Below, piece by piece: positions 11,532 through 56,243 of a stretch of 64,000 nucleotides of DNA; within the stretch, counting starts at the first letter, position 1, and each line of letters begins with the position of its first letter. The notes beneath the pieces were generated by a model, which was not told the DNA's origin, ran no database searches, and saw nothing but the letters and a program-made list of their open reading frames with translations. The DNA is from a virus, in IMG/VR virus record IMGVR_UViG_3300028394_000070, positions 1 through 64,000 of that record, one strand, 5' to 3'. The translations under genes and the position numbers were made by a program.

Positions 11532-12374
11532 CTACAAATTTAAATTTCCTAACACCTTGCGGTTAACCTCATCCCGTATCACATCGATATCCCTCGGCTG
11601 ATTGTTCTCGTCCACCATCTCAACACCATAACCAGCAGGGCCATACTCAGCCTTGCCATGGTAGTACTTGTCGATGATGTACTGCTCTGCCTCAGCCTTG
11701 CTTGTGAACTTCAACTGGTTGTCACTCACCTTCTGCTTGCTGCCGAACTTCTCAGCATTGCGTTGGAACGTATCCAGCCTCCGTGTGATCTCAAAGGCAC
11801 TCTCACCATTCATCCGCATCTTACCACTCGCTGTCGGCTCTGACCAGTAACGATAGAATTCATTGCACAGCTCTCTGCCATACTTTTCCACGTGAGGCAT
11901 CAAAGCCATTTTCAAATCCTCAGGCTTCCACTGCTTGAAAGTTTTCGTCACCGACCCGTCGGCCCCCAGAGAATATGTTACCTCCTTTTTTTTCTTAGCC
12001 TCTTTTTTAGGAATCGATTCAATTTCTGAAAATTCCGCATATATAGTTTTTATATCTTTATCCTTATCTTTATCCTTATCCTTATCCTTATAGGCTTGCT
12101 GTTCGCTTCCAAGTCGCTTCGGTTTCGCTTCTGTTTCGCTTATTAGCAATTTTGTTTTCGGTCTGGAACCGTTGATGTAATTGGTGTTTGCCTTCTCAAG
12201 CACTGGTCTAATTACCCTCCAAAATGTCATCGATAGACCCCCTAAAACAGGCTCAGTGAAGTCTAATGAGTACTCAAAAATGGCATTATATAGCTCCGCT
12301 TGCACCTCGATTGGAAGCTCTTTTATCGACTCAAACATCGAGCGATAGAATATACATGTGTCTCTTTTATACAT
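11532..12374 (-). CDS. Replication initiator-like protein (DUF6291-like N-terminus)
   Basis: A 280-aa protein. Residues 1-65 (RDTCIFYRSMFESIKELP, then F-W-R-V-I-R-P) resemble the N-terminal region of DUF6291-type proteins found beside phage helicases, which are thought to act in replication initiation. A highly charged linker of alternating K and D (about residues 95-107) follows, then a C-terminal helical region (residues 150-275). Its DNA contains a four-unit 11-bp repeat (12101-12143), and a second array lies just before its start codon, as in lambda O where the origin is inside the initiator gene. Initiator function is inferred. Confidence 0.6.
   Translation of the reverse strand: MYKRDTCIFYRSMFESIKELPIEVQAELYNAIFEYSLDFTEPVLGGLSMTFWRVIRPVLEKANTNYINGSRPKTKLLISETEAKPKRLGSEQQAYKDKDKDKDKDKDIKTIYAEFSEIESIPKKEAKKKKEVTYSLGADGSVTKTFKQWKPEDLKMALMPHVEKYGRELCNEFYRYWSEPTASGKMRMNGESAFEITRRLDTFQRNAEKFGSKQKVSDNQLKFTSKAEAEQYIIDKYYHGKAEYGPAGYGVEMVDENNQPRDIDVIRDEVNRKVLGNLNL
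12044..12093 (-). repeat. Hexanucleotide repeat coding for alternating Lys-Asp
   Basis: A tandem 6-base repeat (CTTTAT or CCTTAT on the plus strand) codes for six K-D dipeptides in the linker of the initiator-like protein. Such repeats change length easily by slippage in steps of two residues, so the linker length may vary between relatives. Confidence 0.8.
12101..12143 (-). repeat. Iteron array A: four 11-bp units inside the initiator-like gene
   Basis: The core TCGCTT occurs at 12103, 12114, 12125 and 12136, exactly 11 bp apart, with flanking bases TTCNG partly conserved (AAGCGA on the minus strand). An exact period close to one helical turn is typical of iterons bound by a replication initiator. 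The array overlaps codons for SETEAKPKRLGSEQQ. Confidence 0.75.
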
Positions 12375-12390
12375 ATTTTTATTGGCTTTT

Positions 12391-12434
12391 TATTCGCTTC
12401 GATTTCGCTTCGGTTTCGCTTCCGATTCGCTTTT
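12391..12434 (-). repeat. Iteron array B: four 11-bp units just before the initiator-like gene
   Basis: TCGCTT occurs at 12394, 12405, 12416 and 12427, again exactly 11 bp apart, and ends in a T-run and an A-run (12431-12450) that would melt easily. The array begins 20 bases upstream of the ATG of the initiator-like gene, so it could serve both as an origin and as an operator for self-regulation. Confidence 0.8.
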
Positions 12435-12545: not shown

Positions 12546-12600
12546 TCTGTTCGCTCGACAAAGATAATGTAATAATATTCAAACATCCAAATAAAATTTT

Positions 12601-13771: not shown

Positions 13772-13911
13772 AAATGCCATTTGTCAATTTACTAGTAAAA
13801 TTGGCTCTGCACACGCACGCTCACACGTGGCACGCACGCCTACGTACACGCACGTCACGTACGCACACGACGTACGCACGCACGTACATATATATGCAAA
13901 ATGGCATTTTC
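13772..13911. repeat. Inverted repeat around an alternating purine-pyrimidine tract
   Basis: AAATGCCATTTG (13772-13783) and its near reverse complement CAAAATGGCATTT (13897-13909) flank a tract (13809-13897) made of ACGC, ACGT and CGTACG words that alternate purine and pyrimidine almost throughout and end in ATATATAT. Such tracts favour left-handed or easily melted DNA. The arrangement resembles a structural switch or an origin element. Confidence 0.6.
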
Positions 13912-15374: not shown

Positions 15375-15463
15375 ACGAACAAGAAACCACTAAGAGCATC
15401 GGCATCTTGTATGCCATGCTCATTTTAATCATCCTTGCAAACTTAATTTTACTAGCACTATGA
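15371..15463 (+). CDS. 30-aa membrane peptide
   Basis: An ATG at 15371 overlaps the previous stop, and its own stop TGA overlaps the ATG of the ATPase gene at 15460, so the frame fits the operon exactly. The peptide has a polar start (MNEQETTKS) and a single hydrophobic helix (residues 10-30). Its fit between two ATGA overlaps supports it in spite of its size. Confidence 0.55.
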   Translation: MNEQETTKSIGILYAMLILIILANLILLAL

Positions 15464-16650
15464 ATTACTACGTAATCAACACAAACGATGGTTTCTTTAT
15501 TGATACCACTAATGGTCGTGAGGCATGTCAATTCCTTTATGACAATGGATGCCTTCCCAAGGCTCAACGCAGACCTTTGCTCACAGACAAATTCAACCCC
15601 GTTATGATGATGCAAGGTGCGGTTAACTGCACCATCAACATCAACGGCAACCCTCTTAAGACATCAACTAAACCAACCCCTACAAGCCCGAGCATAGACT
15701 CGTTATCAGATTCATTTCGTTCACTAGAAACCAAACCAAGCACACCAATGACCTCAACAAGCACCAACCCCCAAGACCTTATCGCATCTGCAATTGCGCA
15801 GATGGTTGCATCTTCCAAGCCGACTCTCGATGAGGGTCGTGTCATCGAATTGATTGGTCGTGCTATCGACCAAATCGAGTTCCCGAAAGCTACTGCTCTA
15901 GAGATTAAAATCGCAGACCTACCCGTGGTGACCACTAGCCGTCAGCATTACAAGTTCAGTCAGCTACTCACCCTCATCACCAATGGTGTTCATACCATGT
16001 TGTATGGAGAGGCAGGCAGCGGTAAGTCTACTAGTGCTAGCAAGGTTGCTGAGGTGCTTGGCAGACCTTTCCACTTCTTAAGTGTTGGGGCTACGACCAC
16101 CAAGTTTGAGTTCTTTGGATACAACGATGCGAACGGCAAAGTTGTAGAGACTGAATTCAGAAAGGCTTTCATCAATGGCGGTATCTTCCTAGTGGATGAA
16201 TTCGATAGCGGTTCTGCTAACGTAGGTATCGCATTGAACGAGGCTTTGGCGAATCGCAAGGCTGCGTTTCCCGATGGCATCTTCGAAGCGCATGCCGACT
16301 TCGTTTGCTTGGCAGCAGGTAACACTAGTGGCAACGGGGCTACTACTGAATTCAGAGGACGAAACGCAATGGATAAAGCAACCTTGGATAGGTTCTTTAT
16401 GCTAGAGTGGAACATCGATGAGTCATTCGAATCCGACCTTGCTAGTAACAAGGAATGGGCTAGGAAAGTGCAGTCTATCAGAAAGGCTTTTAAGGATATG
16501 GGGATTAAGCAGCCTTGCACACCTAGAGCGACATTCGATGGACAGAAGCTACTAGCATGTGGCATGTCACAAAATGATGTGCTTAGAGGTACTATATTCA
16601 AAGGTGCTTTATCCGAAGATACAATCAACCAAGTTTTAAACCGCATATAA
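15460..16650 (+). CDS. MoxR/CobS-like AAA+ ATPase
   Basis: A 396-aa protein. The N-terminal 150 residues are a variable part with a Ser/Thr/Pro-rich linker (66-105). The AAA+ core has Walker A G183-E-A-G-S-G-K-S-T, Walker B GIFLVDEFD (241-249), a sensor segment AAGNTSGNG near 285 and an R-F-F-M-L-E-W segment holding the arginine-rich second sensor region. This is the pattern of MoxR/CobS ATPases, which remodel protein complexes together with a VWA-type partner. The next gene, 8 bases downstream, has the look of such a partner. The pair's target is unknown. Confidence 0.8.
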   Translation: MNYYVINTNDGFFIDTTNGREACQFLYDNGCLPKAQRRPLLTDKFNPVMMMQGAVNCTININGNPLKTSTKPTPTSPSIDSLSDSFRSLETKPSTPMTSTSTNPQDLIASAIAQMVASSKPTLDEGRVIELIGRAIDQIEFPKATALEIKIADLPVVTTSRQHYKFSQLLTLITNGVHTMLYGEAGSGKSTSASKVAEVLGRPFHFLSVGATTTKFEFFGYNDANGKVVETEFRKAFINGGIFLVDEFDSGSANVGIALNEALANRKAAFPDGIFEAHADFVCLAAGNTSGNGATTEFRGRNAMDKATLDRFFMLEWNIDESFESDLASNKEWARKVQSIRKAFKDMGIKQPCTPRATFDGQKLLACGMSQNDVLRGTIFKGALSEDTINQVLNRI

Positions 16651-16658
16651 TTACAGAC

Positions 16659-17414
16659 ATGAAAACAATCAACTTGCAGTTCTCATTCTCAGACTTTGTA
16701 GCTGAGGTTAGAAATATCAAAAACCCTCACAACCCTAAGACTAAAGACTACACTGAGTTCACGCTCACCAAGTCTCTAGAAGATGCGCTAGTAATTATGG
16801 ACAAAGGTCATAGCCCCAAAGGGGGCTTTGAACCTTTCGATGTCCCTGCTACTGACTTCGAAACGCAATCAGCTACATGGGATGTGGTTGGTTCAGTTCC
16901 CGACATTGGGGTGTATCTATCGGGCATGCCGATGAATATGATAGACATCGCTCCCATTACAGAACAGAAGCGGTTCGTTAAACTAGCCGTGCAAGTCAAT
17001 TGCAATGGCGGTACTAGTGCTGATAAGATGCAGCGTTTCAATGACAAAGTTTACCACGCTATCTCTAGCCTCAAGGCTCAAGGGGTTGAGGTTGAGTTAT
17101 CGGCATTGGTTTATAACGATGTTAACAAGAGCCGTATCGAATGCATGCTCATCGACATCCTAAAGCAAGGCGAGGTGTTCAACCCTAGTATGCTTAGTGC
17201 TGCGATGCATGTGAGTTTCTTCCGTCGTGTATGGTTCGCATGGACATACCACCACTACGATACATGTGGCGGTTCTTTGAACCCTCCTAGTGTAGTGGGC
17301 GATGGCTACCATGTCATCCCTAGCACAGAGTTTCAAGGTAGAGACTTTGACCTCAAACAATTTATCCTAGACTGCGCTGATAAAGATGAGCAGTCTAGAT
17401 TAGAACTAGCATAA
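16659..17414 (+). CDS. Putative VWA-like partner of the AAA+ ATPase
   Basis: A 251-aa protein. The middle (residues about 75-180) resembles proteins found next to CobS-like ATPases in large phages: VPDIGVYLSGMPMNMIDIAP, then strand VKLAVQVNCNGGTSADKMQ, a helix and strand VEVELSALVY, i.e. an alternating alpha/beta order as in VWA domains. The canonical metal motif DxSxS is replaced by N-x-N-G-G-T-S, so metal binding is uncertain. The gene lies 8 bases after the ATPase. Its 3' end is embedded in a tRNA-like sequence. Confidence 0.6.
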   Translation: MKTINLQFSFSDFVAEVRNIKNPHNPKTKDYTEFTLTKSLEDALVIMDKGHSPKGGFEPFDVPATDFETQSATWDVVGSVPDIGVYLSGMPMNMIDIAPITEQKRFVKLAVQVNCNGGTSADKMQRFNDKVYHAISSLKAQGVEVELSALVYNDVNKSRIECMLIDILKQGEVFNPSMLSAAMHVSFFRRVWFAWTYHHYDTCGGSLNPPSVVGDGYHVIPSTEFQGRDFDLKQFILDCADKDEQSRLELA

Positions 17415-44561: not shown

Positions 44562-47500
44562 TTAATCTCTAATCCTAAATTGTTCATCTATTTTATCCTC
44601 AATCTTTTCATCTATAGTCTCGTCTATAAACGCATTCTCACCTATTACCTTCTTAAGGATGTAGTCTTTGTAGCCAGATTCATTCTCATCATAGTTAGCT
44701 AAGAATTGATCCAGTTCTAAATCAAACTCCATTTTAGATATACCTGATTTAAGTTCGTCATATCTGTCGTCGCAGAACTGTCTCATTATCTTCTTATACT
44801 CGTCACGAACTAGATTTTTTTGCTCTAGTGTAAGAGACTTAACCTTGCTTTCTCCTTCTTCATCATTAGGATCTCTCTCTACATAACTAAATATTCCTGG
44901 CTTGTCAAACTGGTCGTTGTCGTACTTCTTGAACATAGCATAATACTTGCCTCCTGGGCCATTCATGATTTGGTCTACCTGTGGGAATTGCAATACACCA
45001 TCAGCACCTCTAACATACAGCAAGCCTTGGGTCCCAACAGGAAGGACACGTTTCGTCTTCTCCTCGATAGGAAAGTCAAATGCATCGGTCTTTTCCTTTC
45101 TAATGATATTCTCTATGACTGGAACACGGAATGTTACAAAATCATACCACTCCCTAGGATCTTTGCCTGCTATACCCTGTAATGACTTCATGTCTTGGTT
45201 AAAGTTCTTAACCTCAGCTGCAACGAAGAAGTTGCTAATCAGATTACTTACTTTTTTAGTAAATAATAACTGCGCTCGGTCTCCCATATCCTCTAGCCCT
45301 GGCGCACTGTATGAAGATTTCGCTCCAATTGCATCAGCTATCTCCATTACAGGCTTAATAGCTGCCTGATCTTTTACTAGCATTAGTTGCAAGAATGAAG
45401 ACTGCATCATCTGCTGAGTCCATGTTTCTGTAGGTTTCTCTGGGTTGTTGTTAAACAATACAACGTCGTTGTTTGCACCTATACTTCCAAACACAGCTGC
45501 TAGTAAAGGGTTGTCATTATACCTAGTTACTAGTTTTCCATAACTATACACGCAATAAGGCTCTATACCATACATAGACTTCATGGCACTCATCTTAGAA
45601 TATGCTCCAGGATCTGTATATCCATACATAGGGCCTGTCACATAGGTCTTAAGGTTCTTCCACTGCCCATTAAACTCTTCACTACCTTCTTCAGCGGTCT
45701 TATCTCCAAAGAATAGCATATGACGTTCGTTCTCACTTATCTTACCTACGGCCATGATGCCGTCTTTTAGTATTCCTTCTTTTCTCTCATCGTCATCGTC
45801 TAGTGCCTTTCCTATCGCACCTACTATCGCAGTGGTTGATAATATTGACAATGGAACCAATACAGCCTGTAGCATGGTATAACGAACGATCATCTCCTTC
45901 TTTTCCATGTTAACATCTCTACCAAGTACGGTGGATGTTACCCTTCCATACATCTCTGTACGAATGCCTTCATTGGTATAGAATTCAGATGTTGCCTTAT
46001 TTGAATTTAAGAGACCTCTTTGATTTTTTAACAATCTTGTTATTAACACAATCCCTCCTATAAGCGTATTACCCTGTAGGATCTTCTCTGCTGCGTTCAT
46101 CGGAGCATTAGCGAACATATTACCAATCAAAACCTGAGAACCTGGCATAGCCTTTCCTGGTAACTTAAGGAAATGAGCTAGTATACCAAACGTACCTGGA
46201 GGGTTACCAACCAAACCTACTTTACTAGCTAGTTCTTTTGCTGTTGATATAATCTCATCGATACGTGCGCCATCTAGTTCTGATGCCCATCCATTATTTA
46301 CGATATAGGCAGCTGCTCTGTCTTTAGCACCCTCTCTAACAATCTCCATCACCCTTGCTCTGAATAATTTTACATTACGCTTTGCATTGATATCAAGTTC
46401 TGCCTCTGTGAATTCAATCTTTGCCTGAGCAATTGCTTTTACTACTGGAGAATCGCCTAAACCTGGTGTGAATTTAACTCCTTGGATATTAGCCACAGTA
46501 TCTGCAATCTGTTTGGTAGATAGTGTGATGCCATTTTGTTTCGCTAGGTATTTAATCTCATCATACAATAAGTCAGATATCCTTGCTCCTGTTGCTGCCG
46601 ATGTAAACAATGTATCGATAGACCCTAGGAACCTGTTAGACTTTCTAGCGTATTTACCCCATGCTTTTAATGCAGGAGATTCATTTTGCTTAGATAATAT
46701 TTCTGCTGTATTTGTTGTATTGAAGTTCTCTGTTTCAACCATCCCTGCTAGGGTTAGTTTAGCATTGTTCATTCCTTCTTTAAACCAAACCTCAGTATTC
46801 TTCTCTCCTTTTCTTCCAAAGTATGACTTTGCAATCAATGGAATCAATCTAAAATCCCCCTCAAATGTTGCTCTAATAGCCTGTGTTACGAACTCATGTG
46901 GCATATTAATAACATTGGAGTTGAATGCCTTCACCATCGTATCCATTGAAAACAATACATTATGATATATCTGTGAAAGGATAATACTTCCAGCCAGTGA
47001 ATCCCTTATCTTCTGGAATTCGATGTATGACATCATATCATTATAAAACTGCTGTCTTAGGATACTATTCGGCTTTGTCTTAGCAATCTGTTCTGCGAAT
47101 ATCTTTAGGTTATCACGAATCTCTTGGTTCATCTTTGGAAGACCGAAGATGTCAGAGAACAAATCATTCAGGTCGGTTAAGTTACCATCCTTATCTGTCA
47201 ACGATGCATTTTGGTCGATGGCTCCGTACTTAATCATTTCGAATGCTCTTTCAGCACTTGACTTTTTAAGTATCTTATCCTTACTCTTGGTTCTAGGAAC
47301 CGACCTTGCTAGTACCTTCTCTGCTGTCTTTTGTGCAAGCTTATCGTATTCCTTAGTAAACGCTTCGGTAATAGCCTGTGCGTCAGAATATGATATCCCT
47401 GTCTGAGAAACTAATCTATCAACCAAGTCCGCTACAAAATCTTCTCTGTTTGATGCAATAGTCTCATTAGGCAGAAGGAGAATATCCTGTATCTTAAGTT

Positions 47501-50500
47501 GCTTATCCTTTACATCCTCTGCGAACGTAGCTGTAATCTTTTTTTCTGACCGTGGAAGAGCGTTCGCTATCGTGTCGTTAAAGAACGAATCTAGCTTTCT
47601 TCTCAACTCTGCCTTAGCTGCATCTGTATATTTAGTAGGGTCAAGTGCTTCAATCTGTCTTTCAACAGCAGCTTTCGACTCGTTCCATATAGGCTTAGTC
47701 ATTGTTCCGTAGTGGTACAACAACCTTCTTAGCTTATCGAACTCAGTCTCATTTTCTACATCAAAATCTTTTATGTCCTGTGTCGCACGTTTAAACAACT
47801 CGTCCTTAATCAACTTGATAGGATCGGTCATCGGTGCTGAGGTTGGAGCCGTCTGTTTTGTTTTGAATACAATCCTCTTGGCTAATATCTCAGCGTTGTA
47901 TGCTATCTGTGCGTTACCTGCCTCTCTCCAGATGTCATTCCACATCTCAGTGTAATGAGCATCAGAAATACTCATATTGTCTTTAGCTAGTTTTTTGGCG
48001 ATGGCATCCTTGATATCATAGAAATCAAATATACCTCTCTCAAAATTCACCCTTGCTATTTCAGCTAGGATATCTACCACATCAGCATCCACACCAGCAG
48101 GATATTGTCTCCTAGCTCTTGTGTTTCCTAGTGCCTTTAATCTATCCTTAAGCTGCTGAAACAATGAGCGTTCCTTCTTAAGATTTTCTTGTGTTGGTGT
48201 TGCAGGTGTCGTCTGAGGCTTCGGTGGTTTAGGTGGCTTTGGTGTTGTCGGCTTCCCTGGCTTTGGTGGTGTTGTTACTGGGCCTCCTGTAGCAGTTGCT
48301 ATAGTAGCTCTTACCGCATCAACCTCTAAAGCTAGTCTAGCTGCCTCAGCCTTGGCATCCTTCAACTCTTTTATTAGTGCGTCTATCTTTGCCTTTTGTG
48401 ACTTATCCGTAAATGCAGCCTCAACGTCCTGTAAGAACTTCTTCGCCTCAATGGTATACATACCCTCAGGGCTATTTAGATATAGCTTATACAATGCTGC
48501 AATTTCACGACCATTTTCTCTAGCACGTTCTGCTAGTAATGATGACGAACTGTTTATAATTTGCTGATACCTCAACTGCTCTGCGGACCCCTTTGCTGCC
48601 TTCTTAGCTAGTTTATATGCCTCATTAAGCACATTACCTACTATGAATGTTTTAACAGCACCAGAGAACTCGTTTGAAAGGTCATACAGATCTTGTACAT
48701 CTTGAGGTCCATCGATACCACCGAACTCGTCTACAACCATCTGAGCTATTCTCATAGCATCGTCTTGGTTCTGTACCGTGTAGTGTAATGACTCTTTTAG
48801 CTTGTTTATAATCTTACGATTTAAGCTCTTGTCAGAACCTAGTTTCTCAAGCTTTGTTTTAATTCTATCTAATACACTTGACTTTCTAGTCTTTGTTCCT
48901 TCTTGTTGAGCGAATCCCTGACCGCCTTTATTCTCACCGAACTTAGGTCTATTGCCCTCTTTTATGTCAAACCTTAATTGGAAAAGGTCATTAGGATTTA
49001 GATCAATTCCATCATCTGATAGGCCGATATACAATGCCTCGTGTTCGTCATCTTTTATACCACCTGAAGCGTAAAAATTATCTAAGAATGCCTTTGCCTT
49101 GTCGTATATTTTAACCTGATTGTCACGGTCTGCCTTTGTACCCTGATCAGTAGCCCTAGCTGTGTTGTAGTACTGTTGGCTAGACTGAGTCCTTCTGGCT
49201 CTGGTGGTAGGTTCATCCTCTCTATATTGAACCTTTCCTGTAATTAAATTCTCGTCTTCTATATAGTTTTTAGCAGCTTTTAATGACCCTTTAAACACAA
49301 CATCTCCATCAACTTCAGTAGTTACTTCCCATGTTCTGCTGTTTTTATTAGCCCTTTCCATTTGAAGTCTGCTAATATTATCAACAATTACATTAGGAGT
49401 AATCTGCTCTAATTCTAAACCCTCTTCATTTAATTCTATAATCTTAGGGTTATCACGGCTATACTCATTGTATGTTGACTTTCTAGCTCTAGTGGAAGGT
49501 TCTGCTTGCCCCTTCTCTTGCTCTAGCAACGGAGTGATTAACTTATCGTACCTGTCGTATATCTCTTTCAGCTTCGCTTCGTCATTAGGATCGGTAGCAT
49601 CATTTTCAGCCTGCTCCTGCTCTCTTAACTGCGCTATCTGGTCTGTGACATTTACTTGGGTTCTCCTTGCCCTTGTCGTTGACTCCGCATTAGCGACTCC
49701 ACGAACACCTCCATTTGGTCCTTGGTCAGGTGCTGTGCTAGTTCGCTCGGCTCCTCCACCTCTAATCTCTTTTGCGACTGCTTCGGCTTGCTCTCCAAGC
49801 CCTCTGTCTGTTGCGATTTCGATGAATTGTTTGTCATATGATAATTTTAAGTTTGATGGTTCTTCTCCACGTAGCTTCGCCCAGATATCTTTTTCTGGAT
49901 ACCATAATATCGCTTGTACGTCAGCATTTGTTACGTCATAACCTCTTTCAACAAGACCCTTGCGTATATTATTTACTACACGTGTTATGACTCTTCGGTC
50001 TTGGTTACTAGGAATATCTATAGGATTTAAATCCATTATAATATTCTTAGCTGCATTACCCCATTCTGGTTTCTTTGCGCTTATCTCTTCATTGGTTGGA
50101 ATAAATGTCCTTCCATCTTTTTCATTTTGTAAAGATATCCAACCTTTTATAGTTTCGCCATCTTTTACTTTTTTATCATTTTGCGCTAATGGCTTTAATC
50201 CTTTTGCTTTCTGAGCTGCTGCGTATACTTTATACTTTTCTTTTTGACGCTCATTAAGTGCTTTTAATTTATTAGATGCTTGAACATATGACATCTCTCC
50301 AGACAAGAACTTAGCATACATCTCCTTTGACATTGGGATATAATGTATATTCTTATAGTGATTATCTGCAATTAATCTAATTTCATCTGATATCGAATTT
50401 AATGCAGCAACAAAGTCTAGATCATTCTCTCTATCAAATGTGAACTTATCGTCCATTGTCCAATTCAACTCACCTTTTTCATTTTTTACTTGGACTGGCT

Positions 50501-53500
50501 TATGTTTTTTAAATTCTTTTGGTAATTTGATATTTAATTCTTTGTTTTTAATGCCTTGCGTTACAGTCATATATAGCTTTGCCATACGATCTTCTGTAAC
50601 ACCATCTCCAACAACATCACCTGTCCATCTACCCCATGTCCTTCTCATCCATAAATCAATGGTTACAGGATCAAATTTACCCATAAGGTTCTGTAAGAAT
50701 CCTTGACCAATCTTTGGACCAAAAATAGCTGCTCCATTTACATCATCATTTCTTAACCCTGATATCTTTACTTTATTTCCTGTGGCTTCTTTAAAAGCAG
50801 TTTCAAGATCAGCTACAGTAAATCCTTTTGAGATAAACTCTTCCGCAGCATTAAGACCCATCTTATCTATGATGGTATTGGCTAGTTCTAGATTGGATGA
50901 AATAGCAGGGGCTTTCGCTCCATATTTCTTTTTAGAATTAAATCTTCCATTCTTTTTAAAATAGTCGAATTGCTCTTCTGCATATTTTGTATTTACATCA
51001 ACATTTAAATTTTGTGATGTAATAGCTAATGCCATTCTTAGGGCCATTCTAGCAGCTCCTTCAGGATCTTTTTCTTTAGAAAAGACTTCGTACTTCATCG
51101 CACTAGCTCTTGATACTAATTCAGGATGAATGACCCCTGCTACTGCAATTGCTACTTGTATTGCCGTTGAATACCAATTGGCTGCACTCTCATTTTCATT
51201 ATCTTCAAGAGCATCTATTGCTTCTTGAATACCATTATTAGTTATTAACTCTTCTTGTTCAGGTGTTATATCATCACTTGTAACAATAGAACCTCCCCAA
51301 TAATTAGCTGCTGCATTTTGCAATTCTATTGCAACCGCAGCATTCTTTACCTTCTTTTCTGGTTTTGGTAATTCTTCGCTGTCTTTATATAAAATATTAC
51401 TAGCAGACATTGGCATCTGTTCACTTGCAACTTTAGCAGGATCTGCTTCTATTGGTGCTGATCTTCTAGCTCTAGTAGTTGTGGTTTCATTTACATTGTT
51501 TTCAATATCATATTCAAGTCTTTTTACAGCTTGCTGCTTCATTACCTCTTCGGCAGAGTCGTATCCATCTTTATCAAATGATTTTGTATTAGCCTTTTCA
51601 ACTTCAACTATCTCCTTATTAGTATTTACTGTTGTATACACTTGAAACTGACCAATTCTATCTTCAATTGTATTTCTATTACCGCCATCGTATATAATGA
51701 ATACTACATCTGGTCTTCCATTATTAAATTTTTTGAATGTTTCATAATCCCAATCTTTAGTAGTATTACCATTCTCAACCATTGGCTTATATTCATCATT
51801 AAATGCAGTTCTTGATACTGCTTTAAATCCAAAATCAGCATAATAATTAGGTAATATAGTATCAAAACATTCTGCTGTTGAAGCCCCTTCTTTAATACCA
51901 AGTATTAGTAATTGAGATACATTTTTTGGTCTTGTAGGCGATGAAAATGCTCCTCCTAGGAATCCATCTTTTGTTATTGTAACACCTGTACTTCCATCTT
52001 CAGTGACAAACATTCTCATGTCATTGAATTCTTCTGGAGTATGTATCGTTACAGCTGCTGCAAATTTGTTGTCTTTTAATGAATTAATCATTAATTTCTT
52101 ATACGCAACACCATCAGTAATTTCATATACCTTTTGAACACCCATAAAATCAGGGAATGCTTTTTTGATCCCTTCATCTATTTTGTTATCAAGTGTATAT
52201 TCTGCAATAGTATTTACAGTAAGCCCTCCAAGTCTTTTAGTTCCTCGTACGTCTCTTTTATCGATTCCCCTCGTACCGCTGCTTCTGCTAATGTAACTCT
52301 CCAATAACTTGGGTAAGTCTTCAACTCTTCTATCTGGTCGTCTGTCAATTTCTTGCTGCTCTTTGATTCTTCTTGCTGTTTCATTTTTCTTTACAGTTGA
52401 TTCTTCAAAAATAGTATTTATATTTTTAGATTCTTCTTTTTCAGGTGTTCTCCTTGGTCTACTTACTGCAACTTGCTCATTTTCAGTTACAATATTTTTT
52501 GTTTGTTGCTTTAATAAAGGCTCTGCTTTACCTTGAACACCCTGTACGATTCCTGTACGTGTAGACTCAGCCATTGTGTTAAAGAAGTCAATGACATCAT
52601 TCGTATCGTTCGTGTTCTTAAACAATAGATTCGGATCTACAGATATTTTAAGCTTTCTAGCAGCTGATACAATTGTGTTGTTAATCAACTGAGCAATTCT
52701 AGAAAGGATAGGCTTAGGTATCTTTCTTCCCTCTGCCGACATCATACCTCCAAGCTCCGCTAGGAACTCTTCGGCTGTGACATCCTCTTTATTAGGATCT
52801 CTATAGTTTTCAATAAAGTCATTTAAGGAAGCTAAATCAGCTGACTCTAATACCTTGCTTAGTTTACCTTGGAATGACTTGAATAGCTTCTGGTCGTTAC
52901 CAAATATAGTATGCAAACCAACATGCATCGCTTCGTGTGCAAACGTACGTATAGCCTCTGCCCTTTCCTTAGGATCTTTCTTACCTAGCATTGTCTCTAG
53001 GTTAAAATGGACTGCCTTAGGCTTGCCATTATTACCCATCACAAAAGCTGCATCGTCAGTAAGATTATGTTCATTTGCCCCTGACGTAGAATATACAGAA
53101 TCATAAAATTCTTGTGATGTAGAATGTACGTATATCTTTACATTGGGAGCTATCTTATTAATGAACTTTATAGCATTATTAAGAAGCTTGTATATCTTAG
53201 AGGCATCAGCCTGCTCGTCGATCATACTGGTAACAGACTCAGATGGATTAGAGTAGTCGTACTCCATCTCTGCCAACTCCTGTTCAGATAATTTTCCTTG
53301 TTTTTCAGTTGGTTCCTGCTGCGTTTGCTTCTGTTGTCTTTCTTGCTTTACTACAGGCTTTGTCCTAGATTCAGGTTTCAGTCCAGTAGCCTCCTCGTTG
53401 ATACGTGTTTCTTTTTTATATCTATCAAGCATGGTGATATCCTCGCCTAGTTTCGCTTGGATCTCACTTATAGCTTCTATGGACTCAGTTAACTTCTGTT

Positions 53501-56243
53501 GCTTTTCTTTACTAGTGGTGTTCTCAAGCTTATCCTGTATTCTTTGTTTTACATCAGATAGCTCATTATACTTCGAATAAAGAACCTCTTGTACATTGTT
53601 AGCATCATCAGATGATATTTCATCACCATTCATTATGCCTTGGTATGTCTCCTGTATATCAGCAGGAACATCACCCATAAAGTCTAGGTCAGCTATAGGA
53701 ACACCTAAAGCAATACGATCAGCTACTAGGCTTATGTCTAGACCTGGGATTATTTTCTCTTCTACAGTCTCTTCTATATAGCTATATGACTTCAGCTGGT
53801 CTGCTATTTCCTGAGCTTGCTGTGCAGCCTTCTCTGTTAATTCAGTTTTTACAGGTGCTGATGAAAATGACTTTGCTAGTGTTTCTAAAGCATTTACAGT
53901 TCTTTCAACCTTATTCTTAGGTATAGGCTCACTATTTTCTAATGAACTAACTAAGTTACTTATAAATCCCTTCCCTGATTGAACAGTAGATACAAATGTT
54001 CCAGCTGCATTCTGTTTTGATGAGTTACTCACTAAAGCTTTTGTCATAGCCTCTAGTCCAGCGACAGATTCGAACAGTACAGGATTAGCTGGAGCCTTCC
54101 ACTTCTGGTCAGCTATAGACTTTAATTCTGCTTGTATCGATATTAACCTAGCTCTATAACCATCTAACATACTAGGGTCTGCGGTAGCCATGTCAGTTTC
54201 TATTCGCTTCTTGTCTAGTATCAGTTCTATAGAACGCTGTCTTACGGCATCGTCCTTTATGTATTTTGGTATAGCAGCCTTTGCCTCTTTAGCTATCTTT
54301 AGATTCTCAACGAAACTATCTCGTTGTTGCTGTGTTATCTTTCCAGACGTTAGTAATCCATCTGCAACAAGATTCAAGTTATTAAATGCTTCATTATCTC
54401 GTATGGCAGCTGATGCTATCTTTTCGTATGATTGATTATCTGATATCACATCTCCAGCTACAGATATACCACCAGTTCCGAACATACCTAGTACAAATTG
54501 TTCAACTGATTGCTTGCCAAATTCTGCCATTGTAGGAATCTGGAATCCTGGATCTTCTTTATCTTTTACGAATTCGTTAAATGCTAACTTAGTTACCTGT
54601 TCCTGTGTATTTTGCAATACCTCTGTAGTTCCTTCTGGTATTCCTCTTACAAGTGCCTTTTGAGCAGATTCGTATGTTTTTTTAAATAAACTATTAATTA
54701 TTTCTGCTTTAGGAACACCTGCTTTTGTCTGAGATCTAATAAATTGCTTTGTACTATTCTTTAGCATCTCTCTTTCCCATCCTTTTAGCAAGCCTTGGAC
54801 AGGAAGATATTCAAGAAAACCTGATCCAATAGCTACCGTTTTAGCGAATATCTCTGCTTCATCTTCTTCAAATCCAGCTAATCTTGCATCATCTTTAAGG
54901 TCGCCAAACATCATACCGTAACCTGCCATAAAACCTCCTACAGGACCACCTCTATATGTAGCAGCTATAACCGTTCCCATACTAGAAACTAATTGCCCAA
55001 CAGCATGGCCTCCGTTTGCAGCATTTAATCCATCCAATATACTCACCTCTGATGCTAGTGCTGTTATTGGATTTGATTTCTTATAGTCTTCTAATTCTTT
55101 TTTTCTATTTACAACAAATTGCTTTACAGCTACAGCTATAGGGTCTGGATTATTTTTTAGTTTTTCGTTATATTTAGGATCGTCAAATACAAATGCTCCA
55201 GGTCCAGTCATGGATTCCGCAACTGAATTAGCTAGAGATAATGCCATTCCATAAAGATCCTCTACATTACTTTCTAAAAATACAGCAGCTCTATATCCAG
55301 CTGGCATACTATCTAGAAAGTCTGAGGCGAATTGTACATCTTTTTTATGTTGCTTTTTCTGAAAAGGTTCTTGTACCTCGTTAGATACCCTATTGATTAT
55401 AATCTGGTCGTATAATTCATCCTGCTTCTTTTTCAATAGAGCCTTGTCTGCCTGTGGGTCTTTTAACATTTTAGTGACCTCAGTAGTCAGATTAAACATA
55501 TTCTTTGTAGACTCTTCTTGTAATGCTTTTATCGTAGCGTAGCTTGATATAAAATCAACAGTACCTTTCGCTGAATGATTTCTTCTAACTGCTATCTTTA
55601 ATTGTTCTTTTTCTGGTTGAGTCAATTTAGCAATCTCTGCTCCTGATAATCCTAGTATTTTATTTTCTAGTGGAGCTTGTCCCAAATAATTACCAACTGC
55701 TGATATTTCAGCTCCTGGAATTTTCCCATTATCAATTGCATCAAATATCCACTCAAGGTCTTTATCAGCAGCTTTATATTCATCAATCATCGTCTGAGAG
55801 ATATTCAGATTTATCTCTTCTTCTGACTTTGGCCTAGCTATCTCTCTTCCTATTGTATTGAGTGTGAAGTCAGGTAATTCTTTTTTTGGTGCAGCTACAA
55901 GTGGATATTCTTCTTGCATAGATTGCTCTTCTTGCTGCATCGGTTGAAACGATGATGGTATCCTACTAGACTCCAGCTTAGGTCTAAGGTAGTTACTAGT
56001 CAATGCCTGTGCTTCTTCCATCGACTTACCGCTAACCATGCCAGCTATATCTCTTGTCTGTGTGTCCGTCAATGTCACACCTGCATTTGAGAAGTATCTC
56101 TTAACCTGCTGGGGGTTCATATTAGCAGGAAGCTTTGGTTTAGCAGGTGGTTTTTTATATGATCCTGCCATAGATGGAAGCCCATCTTCTTCGCCATTAT
56201 TATAGTCAACCATGCTTGGCAATACTAATTCTTCATCATCCAT
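44562..56243 (-). CDS. Giant polyvalent internal virion protein (3893 aa)
   Basis: The largest gene. Features in order: a hydrophobic glycine-rich stretch near residues 415-450; a zincin motif A-H-E-A-M-H near 1105 with a following E-E-F-L-A-E helix; a domain near 1360-1530 (L-I-L-G-I-K-E-G...D-x-I-L-P-x-Y-Y-x-x-F-G-F and P-D-V-V-F) found in many phage polyvalent proteins; a helix-hairpin-helix-like part near 1850-1880 (G-P-K-I-G-Q-G-F...W-x-R-R-T-W-G-R-W-T-G); a proline-rich linker near 2655-2690; a long helical region; and a hydrophobic helix near 3450-3475. The motif T-R-A-R-R/K recurs between domains. Such proteins are thought to be ejected with the DNA. Individual functions are inferred. 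Confidence 0.75.
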   Translation of the reverse strand: MDDEELVLPSMVDYNNGEEDGLPSMAGSYKKPPAKPKLPANMNPQQVKRYFSNAGVTLTDTQTRDIAGMVSGKSMEEAQALTSNYLRPKLESSRIPSSFQPMQQEEQSMQEEYPLVAAPKKELPDFTLNTIGREIARPKSEEEINLNISQTMIDEYKAADKDLEWIFDAIDNGKIPGAEISAVGNYLGQAPLENKILGLSGAEIAKLTQPEKEQLKIAVRRNHSAKGTVDFISSYATIKALQEESTKNMFNLTTEVTKMLKDPQADKALLKKKQDELYDQIIINRVSNEVQEPFQKKQHKKDVQFASDFLDSMPAGYRAAVFLESNVEDLYGMALSLANSVAESMTGPGAFVFDDPKYNEKLKNNPDPIAVAVKQFVVNRKKELEDYKKSNPITALASEVSILDGLNAANGGHAVGQLVSSMGTVIAATYRGGPVGGFMAGYGMMFGDLKDDARLAGFEEDEAEIFAKTVAIGSGFLEYLPVQGLLKGWEREMLKNSTKQFIRSQTKAGVPKAEIINSLFKKTYESAQKALVRGIPEGTTEVLQNTQEQVTKLAFNEFVKDKEDPGFQIPTMAEFGKQSVEQFVLGMFGTGGISVAGDVISDNQSYEKIASAAIRDNEAFNNLNLVADGLLTSGKITQQQRDSFVENLKIAKEAKAAIPKYIKDDAVRQRSIELILDKKRIETDMATADPSMLDGYRARLISIQAELKSIADQKWKAPANPVLFESVAGLEAMTKALVSNSSKQNAAGTFVSTVQSGKGFISNLVSSLENSEPIPKNKVERTVNALETLAKSFSSAPVKTELTEKAAQQAQEIADQLKSYSYIEETVEEKIIPGLDISLVADRIALGVPIADLDFMGDVPADIQETYQGIMNGDEISSDDANNVQEVLYSKYNELSDVKQRIQDKLENTTSKEKQQKLTESIEAISEIQAKLGEDITMLDRYKKETRINEEATGLKPESRTKPVVKQERQQKQTQQEPTEKQGKLSEQELAEMEYDYSNPSESVTSMIDEQADASKIYKLLNNAIKFINKIAPNVKIYVHSTSQEFYDSVYSTSGANEHNLTDDAAFVMGNNGKPKAVHFNLETMLGKKDPKERAEAIRTFAHEAMHVGLHTIFGNDQKLFKSFQGKLSKVLESADLASLNDFIENYRDPNKEDVTAEEFLAELGGMMSAEGRKIPKPILSRIAQLINNTIVSAARKLKISVDPNLLFKNTNDTNDVIDFFNTMAESTRTGIVQGVQGKAEPLLKQQTKNIVTENEQVAVSRPRRTPEKEESKNINTIFEESTVKKNETARRIKEQQEIDRRPDRRVEDLPKLLESYISRSSGTRGIDKRDVRGTKRLGGLTVNTIAEYTLDNKIDEGIKKAFPDFMGVQKVYEITDGVAYKKLMINSLKDNKFAAAVTIHTPEEFNDMRMFVTEDGSTGVTITKDGFLGGAFSSPTRPKNVSQLLILGIKEGASTAECFDTILPNYYADFGFKAVSRTAFNDEYKPMVENGNTTKDWDYETFKKFNNGRPDVVFIIYDGGNRNTIEDRIGQFQVYTTVNTNKEIVEVEKANTKSFDKDGYDSAEEVMKQQAVKRLEYDIENNVNETTTTRARRSAPIEADPAKVASEQMPMSASNILYKDSEELPKPEKKVKNAAVAIELQNAAANYWGGSIVTSDDITPEQEELITNNGIQEAIDALEDNENESAANWYSTAIQVAIAVAGVIHPELVSRASAMKYEVFSKEKDPEGAARMALRMALAITSQNLNVDVNTKYAEEQFDYFKKNGRFNSKKKYGAKAPAISSNLELANTIIDKMGLNAAEEFISKGFTVADLETAFKEATGNKVKISGLRNDDVNGAAIFGPKIGQGFLQNLMGKFDPVTIDLWMRRTWGRWTGDVVGDGVTEDRMAKLYMTVTQGIKNKELNIKLPKEFKKHKPVQVKNEKGELNWTMDDKFTFDRENDLDFVAALNSISDEIRLIADNHYKNIHYIPMSKEMYAKFLSGEMSYVQASNKLKALNERQKEKYKVYAAAQKAKGLKPLAQNDKKVKDGETIKGWISLQNEKDGRTFIPTNEEISAKKPEWGNAAKNIIMDLNPIDIPSNQDRRVITRVVNNIRKGLVERGYDVTNADVQAILWYPEKDIWAKLRGEEPSNLKLSYDKQFIEIATDRGLGEQAEAVAKEIRGGGAERTSTAPDQGPNGGVRGVANAESTTRARRTQVNVTDQIAQLREQEQAENDATDPNDEAKLKEIYDRYDKLITPLLEQEKGQAEPSTRARKSTYNEYSRDNPKIIELNEEGLELEQITPNVIVDNISRLQMERANKNSRTWEVTTEVDGDVVFKGSLKAAKNYIEDENLITGKVQYREDEPTTRARRTQSSQQYYNTARATDQGTKADRDNQVKIYDKAKAFLDNFYASGGIKDDEHEALYIGLSDDGIDLNPNDLFQLRFDIKEGNRPKFGENKGGQGFAQQEGTKTRKSSVLDRIKTKLEKLGSDKSLNRKIINKLKESLHYTVQNQDDAMRIAQMVVDEFGGIDGPQDVQDLYDLSNEFSGAVKTFIVGNVLNEAYKLAKKAAKGSAEQLRYQQIINSSSSLLAERARENGREIAALYKLYLNSPEGMYTIEAKKFLQDVEAAFTDKSQKAKIDALIKELKDAKAEAARLALEVDAVRATIATATGGPVTTPPKPGKPTTPKPPKPPKPQTTPATPTQENLKKERSLFQQLKDRLKALGNTRARRQYPAGVDADVVDILAEIARVNFERGIFDFYDIKDAIAKKLAKDNMSISDAHYTEMWNDIWREAGNAQIAYNAEILAKRIVFKTKQTAPTSAPMTDPIKLIKDELFKRATQDIKDFDVENETEFDKLRRLLYHYGTMTKPIWNESKAAVERQIEALDPTKYTDAAKAELRRKLDSFFNDTIANALPRSEKKITATFAEDVKDKQLKIQDILLLPNETIASNREDFVADLVDRLVSQTGISYSDAQAITEAFTKEYDKLAQKTAEKVLARSVPRTKSKDKILKKSSAERAFEMIKYGAIDQNASLTDKDGNLTDLNDLFSDIFGLPKMNQEIRDNLKIFAEQIAKTKPNSILRQQFYNDMMSYIEFQKIRDSLAGSIILSQIYHNVLFSMDTMVKAFNSNVINMPHEFVTQAIRATFEGDFRLIPLIAKSYFGRKGEKNTEVWFKEGMNNAKLTLAGMVETENFNTTNTAEILSKQNESPALKAWGKYARKSNRFLGSIDTLFTSAATGARISDLLYDEIKYLAKQNGITLSTKQIADTVANIQGVKFTPGLGDSPVVKAIAQAKIEFTEAELDINAKRNVKLFRARVMEIVREGAKDRAAAYIVNNGWASELDGARIDEIISTAKELASKVGLVGNPPGTFGILAHFLKLPGKAMPGSQVLIGNMFANAPMNAAEKILQGNTLIGGIVLITRLLKNQRGLLNSNKATSEFYTNEGIRTEMYGRVTSTVLGRDVNMEKKEMIVRYTMLQAVLVPLSILSTTAIVGAIGKALDDDDERKEGILKDGIMAVGKISENERHMLFFGDKTAEEGSEEFNGQWKNLKTYVTGPMYGYTDPGAYSKMSAMKSMYGIEPYCVYSYGKLVTRYNDNPLLAAVFGSIGANNDVVLFNNNPEKPTETWTQQMMQSSFLQLMLVKDQAAIKPVMEIADAIGAKSSYSAPGLEDMGDRAQLLFTKKVSNLISNFFVAAEVKNFNQDMKSLQGIAGKDPREWYDFVTFRVPVIENIIRKEKTDAFDFPIEEKTKRVLPVGTQGLLYVRGADGVLQFPQVDQIMNGPGGKYYAMFKKYDNDQFDKPGIFSYVERDPNDEEGESKVKSLTLEQKNLVRDEYKKIMRQFCDDRYDELKSGISKMEFDLELDQFLANYDENESGYKDYILKKVIGENAFIDETIDEKIEDKIDEQFRIRD

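Follow-up and report, generated by a model that had tools for sequence, protein, structure and literature searches.

The 64,000-nt window analyzed here, which is the whole stretch of DNA under study (positions 1 to 64,000 of the 71,521-bp virus record IMGVR_UViG_3300028394_000070), carries two short arrays of a repeated hexamer, one within an initiator-like gene and one before it, and raises the question of whether arrays and gene together constitute a replication origin and its initiator. The hexamer TCGCTT occurs at 12103, 12114, 12125, and 12136 and again at 12394, 12405, 12416, and 12427; all eight positions, and the placement of the two four-unit arrays that an earlier note had read from the sequence, were recovered. 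The host gene is on the minus strand and the array unit therefore reads AAGCGANNNNN. Each array consists of four exact AAGCGA units in 11-bp steps followed by a truncated fifth unit, AAGCC. The spaced pair TCGCTTN5TCGCTT has six occurrences in the window, every one inside the two arrays, and none in 100 dinucleotide shuffles of the window, and the whole virus record contains no unit triplets beyond the two arrays. When codons 71–97 were redrawn synonymously with the protein kept, four exact 11-bp units arose in 0 of 200,000 draws. Both arrays are genuine and not a product of chance.

The features of the locus are collected in Table 1. Read 5' to 3' on the minus strand, the promoter box is followed by the leader RNA, the upstream array, and the initiator ATG, and inside the gene the N-domain is followed by the array, the tandem tract, and the C-domain. 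The primase-helicase gene (PHROG matches to DNA polymerase/primase and primase/helicase) lies directly 3' of the initiator gene and is followed by a NinB-like gene. The linker of the initiator is written by the DNA of the array and the tract, and because the array lies inside the gene, its sequence dictates this part of the protein, which is charged and predicted to be disordered (pLDDT < 50 in the AF2 model).

Table 1. Coordinates of the features of the initiator locus in the 64,000-nt window.
Feature	Start	End	Strand	Basis or remark
Primase-helicase (Prim-Pol N-domain and DnaB_C domain)	9373	11532	-	Pfam Prim-Pol 3.1e-10, DnaB_C 7.4e-7
Initiator gene, 280 aa (DUF6291 N-domain, linker, C-domain)	11532	12374	-	Pfam, AF2 models, relatives
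Tandem 6-bp AT-rich tract TATAAGGATAAGGATAAGGATAAAGAT..., encoding YKDKDKDKD	12048	12092	-	Proposed unwinding element
In-gene array, 4 x AAGCGAN5 + AAGCC	12093	12141	-	Codons ~78-94
Upstream array, 4 x AAGCGAN5 + AAGCC	12384	12432	-	5' UTR, between leader and ATG
Leader RNA element (P1, 9-bp pseudoknot, long stem P2 enclosing P3, T-run)	12441	12553	-	Covariance model, pair counts
Bacteroidota-type -7 promoter box TATCTTTG	12559	12566	-	Ends 5 nt before helix P1

A scan of viral contigs for relatives returned 55 loci, mostly on metagenomic contigs that are often fragments of uncertain completeness. Among all fetched loci, the in-gene array is kept in 64 of 64 distinct DTCIFYRS-type initiators and in each case ends in the tandem tract (TATAAGGATAAGGAT, directly after the array); as YKDKDKDK was among the peptide patterns used for fetching, the presence of the tract is partly pre-selected, while its codon choice and the array are not. 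The tract starts at gene nucleotide 282 in 55 of these genes, 288 in six, 285 in one, and 315 in two, the last two having arrays that are longer by 33 bp, or three whole units, with frame and phase preserved. The fraction of synonymous differences is 0.03 in the array and 0.14 in the tract compared with 0.45 for codons 2–76 (0.40–0.51 in 17-codon windows across them), and the contrast between the array and the rest of the shared region indicates selection on the DNA. In the array codons of the relatives, Glu is encoded by GAA (185/185), Arg by CGA (44/46), and Ala only by GCG or GCC, and in the tract Asp is encoded by GAT (196/196). The earlier note had proposed looking among related phages for loss of the 11-bp spacing despite a kept protein; the opposite was seen, with the array retained as the protein diverges. 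The locus is a clear example of a protein sequence dictated by the function of its DNA.

The tract, within a region of GC content 0.21 (12040–12092), is not a plain microsatellite: on viral contigs the exact tract was found in 55 stretches versus 2 for its letters reversed, and nearly all of the newly found stretches inspected belong to initiator-like genes. In bacterial genomes, 8 of the 9 tract matches were unrelated, so the tract by itself is not diagnostic. AAGCGA triplets were also rejected as a specific marker, the matches listed including chance sites as well as arrays in many further initiator-like genes, some of them unrelated.

The initiator matches the Pfam family DUF6291 (PF19808; 4.6e-13, 49.6 bits against a curated cut-off of 27.2), as do several of the sister types described below. 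Pfam assigns this family no function, and no paper naming it was found in the open-access literature; origin binding is proposed here as a functional hypothesis for the family. The N-domain is modeled confidently as a three-helix bundle (pLDDT 85.8). Its significant fold matches are to DUF6291 proteins and to a small number of viral models that are unnamed or carry other names; models labeled replisome organizer or DnaD domain are among the weaker matches. The N-domain showed no recognised DNA-binding fold, searches of the PDB by sequence and by fold gave no match that was both significant and plausible, and no O-like family was matched by sequence in PHROG, NCBIfam, or PDB. By the searches run, the protein is not a homologue of lambda O, and our claim is accordingly that it works like lambda O, not that it is one. 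Sister initiator types 3, 4, and 5, behind the same leader, match phrog_678 or phrog_18020 (“replication initiation O-like”). Protein matches among named phages were distant, mostly to Riemerella phages, with none close; together with the promoter type, these matches suggest that the phage infects Bacteroidota.

Placing an origin inside the gene of its initiator is a known strategy, which this phage seems to use with a new protein family. Repeats and an AT-rich region inside the initiator gene have been studied experimentally in lambda (PMC7466680) and SPP1 (PMC6316719). Like ori-lambda in gene O (PMC7466680), the window has repeated putative initiator sites in mid-gene, an AT-rich region adjoining them, and a neighboring gene with helicase function, and 38 of 43 relatives encode a DnaB-like helicase no more than 4 kb downstream. 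It differs from ori-lambda in the 11-bp units with a 6-bp core, the tandem 6-bp tract, the unrelated three-helix DUF6291 N-domain, the fused primase-helicase in place of gene P, and the conserved pseudoknot leader ahead of the gene. SPP1, with oriL inside gene 38 and oriR elsewhere (PMC6316719), is similar in its direct repeats and AT-rich region and in having one site in-gene and a second outside, whereas here the second array, only ~290 bp distant, lies in the initiator gene's own leader and lacks the tandem tract; no sequence relation to SPP1 is claimed.

On comparative evidence, we consider it very probable that the in-gene array and the tract form a lambda-O-like replication origin and that the encircling DUF6291 gene encodes the cognate initiator. 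The earlier proposal of such an origin, which had included both arrays, is the best-supported reading for the in-gene array, with its conservation, tract, and helicase neighbor; the upstream array, absent from the relatives examined, is not a general part of it. The AT-rich DNA and cloverleaf-like repeat placed beside the second array also need revision, as the relevant AT-rich DNA is the tract next to the in-gene array and the cloverleaf is the pseudoknotted leader RNA, a separate conserved element. GC skew, also suggested as a check, gave weak support: the cumulative skew has a local minimum near 16 kb and not at 12.4 kb, ~3.5 kb from the arrays, and the method is too imprecise to serve as proof of an origin.

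In iteron origins, sites one helical turn apart align identical protein domains on one face of the DNA. The N-domain of the initiator described here may bind the AAGCGA sites, and since these are spaced one helical turn apart, the bound proteins would be aligned on one DNA face. Binding to the array would then open the adjoining GATAAG tract, the likely opening point, and the C-domain may pass the primase-helicase encoded by the neighboring gene to the opened strand.

The same leader RNA also precedes initiators with other N-domains, including other DUF6291 subfamilies and winged-helix-like proteins, and nearly every sister initiator has its own periodic linker array at the same place. The period is mostly 11 bp, with 10 bp in the MKKS and MKAS/MKPS groups, and the tracts that follow have units of 6 bp, or 9 bp in the winged-helix types. 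In the 11-bp types, the observed periodicity was reached by 0 or 1 of 200 codon shuffles; by the same test, the MRKS subfamily has no significant array, with the tract present. Periodicity is kept in the sister genes while the linkers that they encode are unrelated. Domain N1 is paired with C1 in 41 cases, C2 in 15, and C3 in 3, and N2 with C2 in 10; as a C-domain is common to several N-types, the N-domain with its array and the C-domain are exchangeable. Distant DUF6291 genes (L052, L053, and L102) have arrays of different sequence before the same tract. The main evolutionary reason to think that the array is read by the N-domain is this joint change of the two. To find origins in uncultured phages, one may search the linkers of initiator genes for a 10–11-bp array together with a short tandem tract.

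Several individual loci are of interest. Initiator-like genes with unrelated N-domains (L185, L190, L192, L197, L218, L230, and L236) have 11-bp arrays such as AAGCGACCANC or AAGCGACACAG and then AAGAATGATAAG-like tracts. Two initiator-array modules occur on one contig in IMGVR_UViG_3300037493_001386 (L078 and L079, with leader copies at 5.5 and 43.8 kb) and on one phage contig in IMGVR_UViG_3300036978_000077 (L093 and L101), representing either two replicons or a joined contig. A DUF6291 gene with the same tract is also present in a gammaproteobacterial MAG (L114, ~1360–1700); its frame opens with MTKTMTKT-type repeats, MTKT recurs ahead of the tract, and the gene may be a second two-array case.

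None of the relatives examined has the upstream array, which is known from this window alone. All 29 core positions are identical between the two arrays, compared with 12 of 20 spacer positions, as expected if the upstream array were a duplicate retaining only its putative binding sites. From this one example, its location in the 5' UTR points to autoregulation or to an additional site for the initiator; most likely, the array binds the same initiator and either represses its own gene or serves as a second, weaker site.

Two other readings of the arrays were weighed. The linker is charged and predicted to be disordered, and the alignment shows a protein repeat of 11 residues, so that the repeats could have been selected as protein, with a charged linker (SExEAKxKRxx, KDKDKD) incidentally giving periodic DNA. 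This reading is largely refuted and has hardly any remaining probability: codon choice is frozen in the array and not elsewhere, the upstream array keeps every core base in non-coding DNA, and sister genes retain the periodicity with different linker sequences. The arrays might instead be operators through which the DUF6291 protein or another regulator controls transcription, with the true origin elsewhere, as would suit an upstream array in a 5' UTR and a GC-skew minimum at some distance. We regard this as improbable, because operators are a poorer fit than origins to a universally conserved array ~230 bp into the coding region, beside an AT-rich tandem tract and a helicase gene, and to an upstream array that is missing from relatives.

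The leader is a 113-nt element found in 81 phage loci, 68 of them distinct, and its covariance model matches the window at 12557–12440 with 82.8 bits. The P1 hairpin pairs 12553–12547 with 12536–12530, and in the pseudoknot the P1 loop (12545–12537) pairs with the strand 3' of P3 (12473–12465). Pairs were first counted in 41 leaders located through the protein only, in which 98.4% of cells are paired and 24 of 33 pairs changed on both sides (166 such cells), with none of 500 shuffles as high. Further leaders were added by a DNA pattern that fixes part of P2 and the last pseudoknot bases, so these positions are pre-selected in the larger set of 68 distinct leaders, where 98.7% of cells pair and two-sided changes are seen in 25 of 33 pairs (243 cells; 0/500 shuffles); slid versions of the structure pair only 29–51%. 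The pseudoknot counts are not forced, since the model to which the larger alignment was fitted did not contain the pseudoknot. Its inner eight pairs are complementary in 81 of 81 leaders, with 19 sequence versions when the outer pair and one truncated row are counted. Between close leaders (6–10 differences elsewhere), the per-site difference is 0.207 in the pseudoknot, 0.038 in other stems, and 0.142 in unpaired positions. Folding was more stable than in shuffles (z ≤ -3.3 in five of six tested leaders and -2.2 in the sixth).

At gathering score, the leader had no match to Rfam 15 in the window, and a search of eight relatives to E = 1 gave one chance snoRNA match outside the leader; a tRNA was likewise sought in the cloverleaf, with none found. 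The leader was found in 0 of 297 bacterial genomes under strict filters and with no positive control. The leader represents a sizeable, covarying RNA class without an Rfam match that is tied to replication genes and, judged by the open-access literature, looks new. Leaders begin a few nt past a TANNTTTG-like box: the exact box lies within 45 nt upstream in 49 of 76 (0.026 expected for each), and most of the others are one base off; a -33 TTG at the expected spacing accompanies only 12 of the 49. The leader usually ends 0–5 nt from the next ATG, and the T-run of the window leader is near the ATG of the initiator. At some loci, a short gene, a methyltransferase gene, or an HNH-type endonuclease gene (the last at L146 and L174) lies directly behind the leader.

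A strong conserved structure beside the initiator gene, common to different initiators, could itself be the origin, with folded single-stranded DNA, and not the arrays, as a priming or primosome-assembly site. A promoter box at its start and a T-run beside the ATG at its end make this very unlikely, and the strand is set by the excess of G-T over A-C pairs (90 versus 13, with 10 of the latter at a single end pair), which agrees with RNA but also allows single-stranded DNA of that strand. Most likely, the leader acts as an RNA that controls the amount of initiator made. The simplest idea, to which we give an even chance, is that it limits initiator expression, since the initiator ATG lies right at its terminator-like end. 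In plasmid incompatibility, loop sequences act as specificity determinants. A more speculative proposal, rather unlikely at present, is that the leader belongs to a novel class of regulatory phage RNAs in which the fast-changing, always complementary pseudoknot is a specificity code, and that the same RNA with varied initiators and their own in-gene origins forms an exchangeable replication cassette. The pseudoknot would then set the initiator level and let related phages in one cell distinguish their replication modules, and its fast change makes replication specificity between related phages directly testable. Plasmid ColIb-P9 likewise has a pseudoknotted leader, that of repZ, directly 5' of the initiator start (Asano and Mizobuchi, 1998, as reviewed in PMC8383071). 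The leader described here has no sequence relation to it and closes at the ATG with a terminator-like stem followed by a T-run, and antisense boxes of the TANNTTTG type, looked for as a sign of an antisense promoter, are not enriched (5 of 76 leaders, with ~0.15 expected for each).

Elsewhere in the window, an AAA+ ATPase gene (AAA_5, phrog_249) is followed by one for a DUF7192 protein (15460–17414), and a low-complexity tract rich in CACGCACG/ACGT is located at 13831–13888. A single open frame of 3893 codons at 44562–56243 represents a giant gene.
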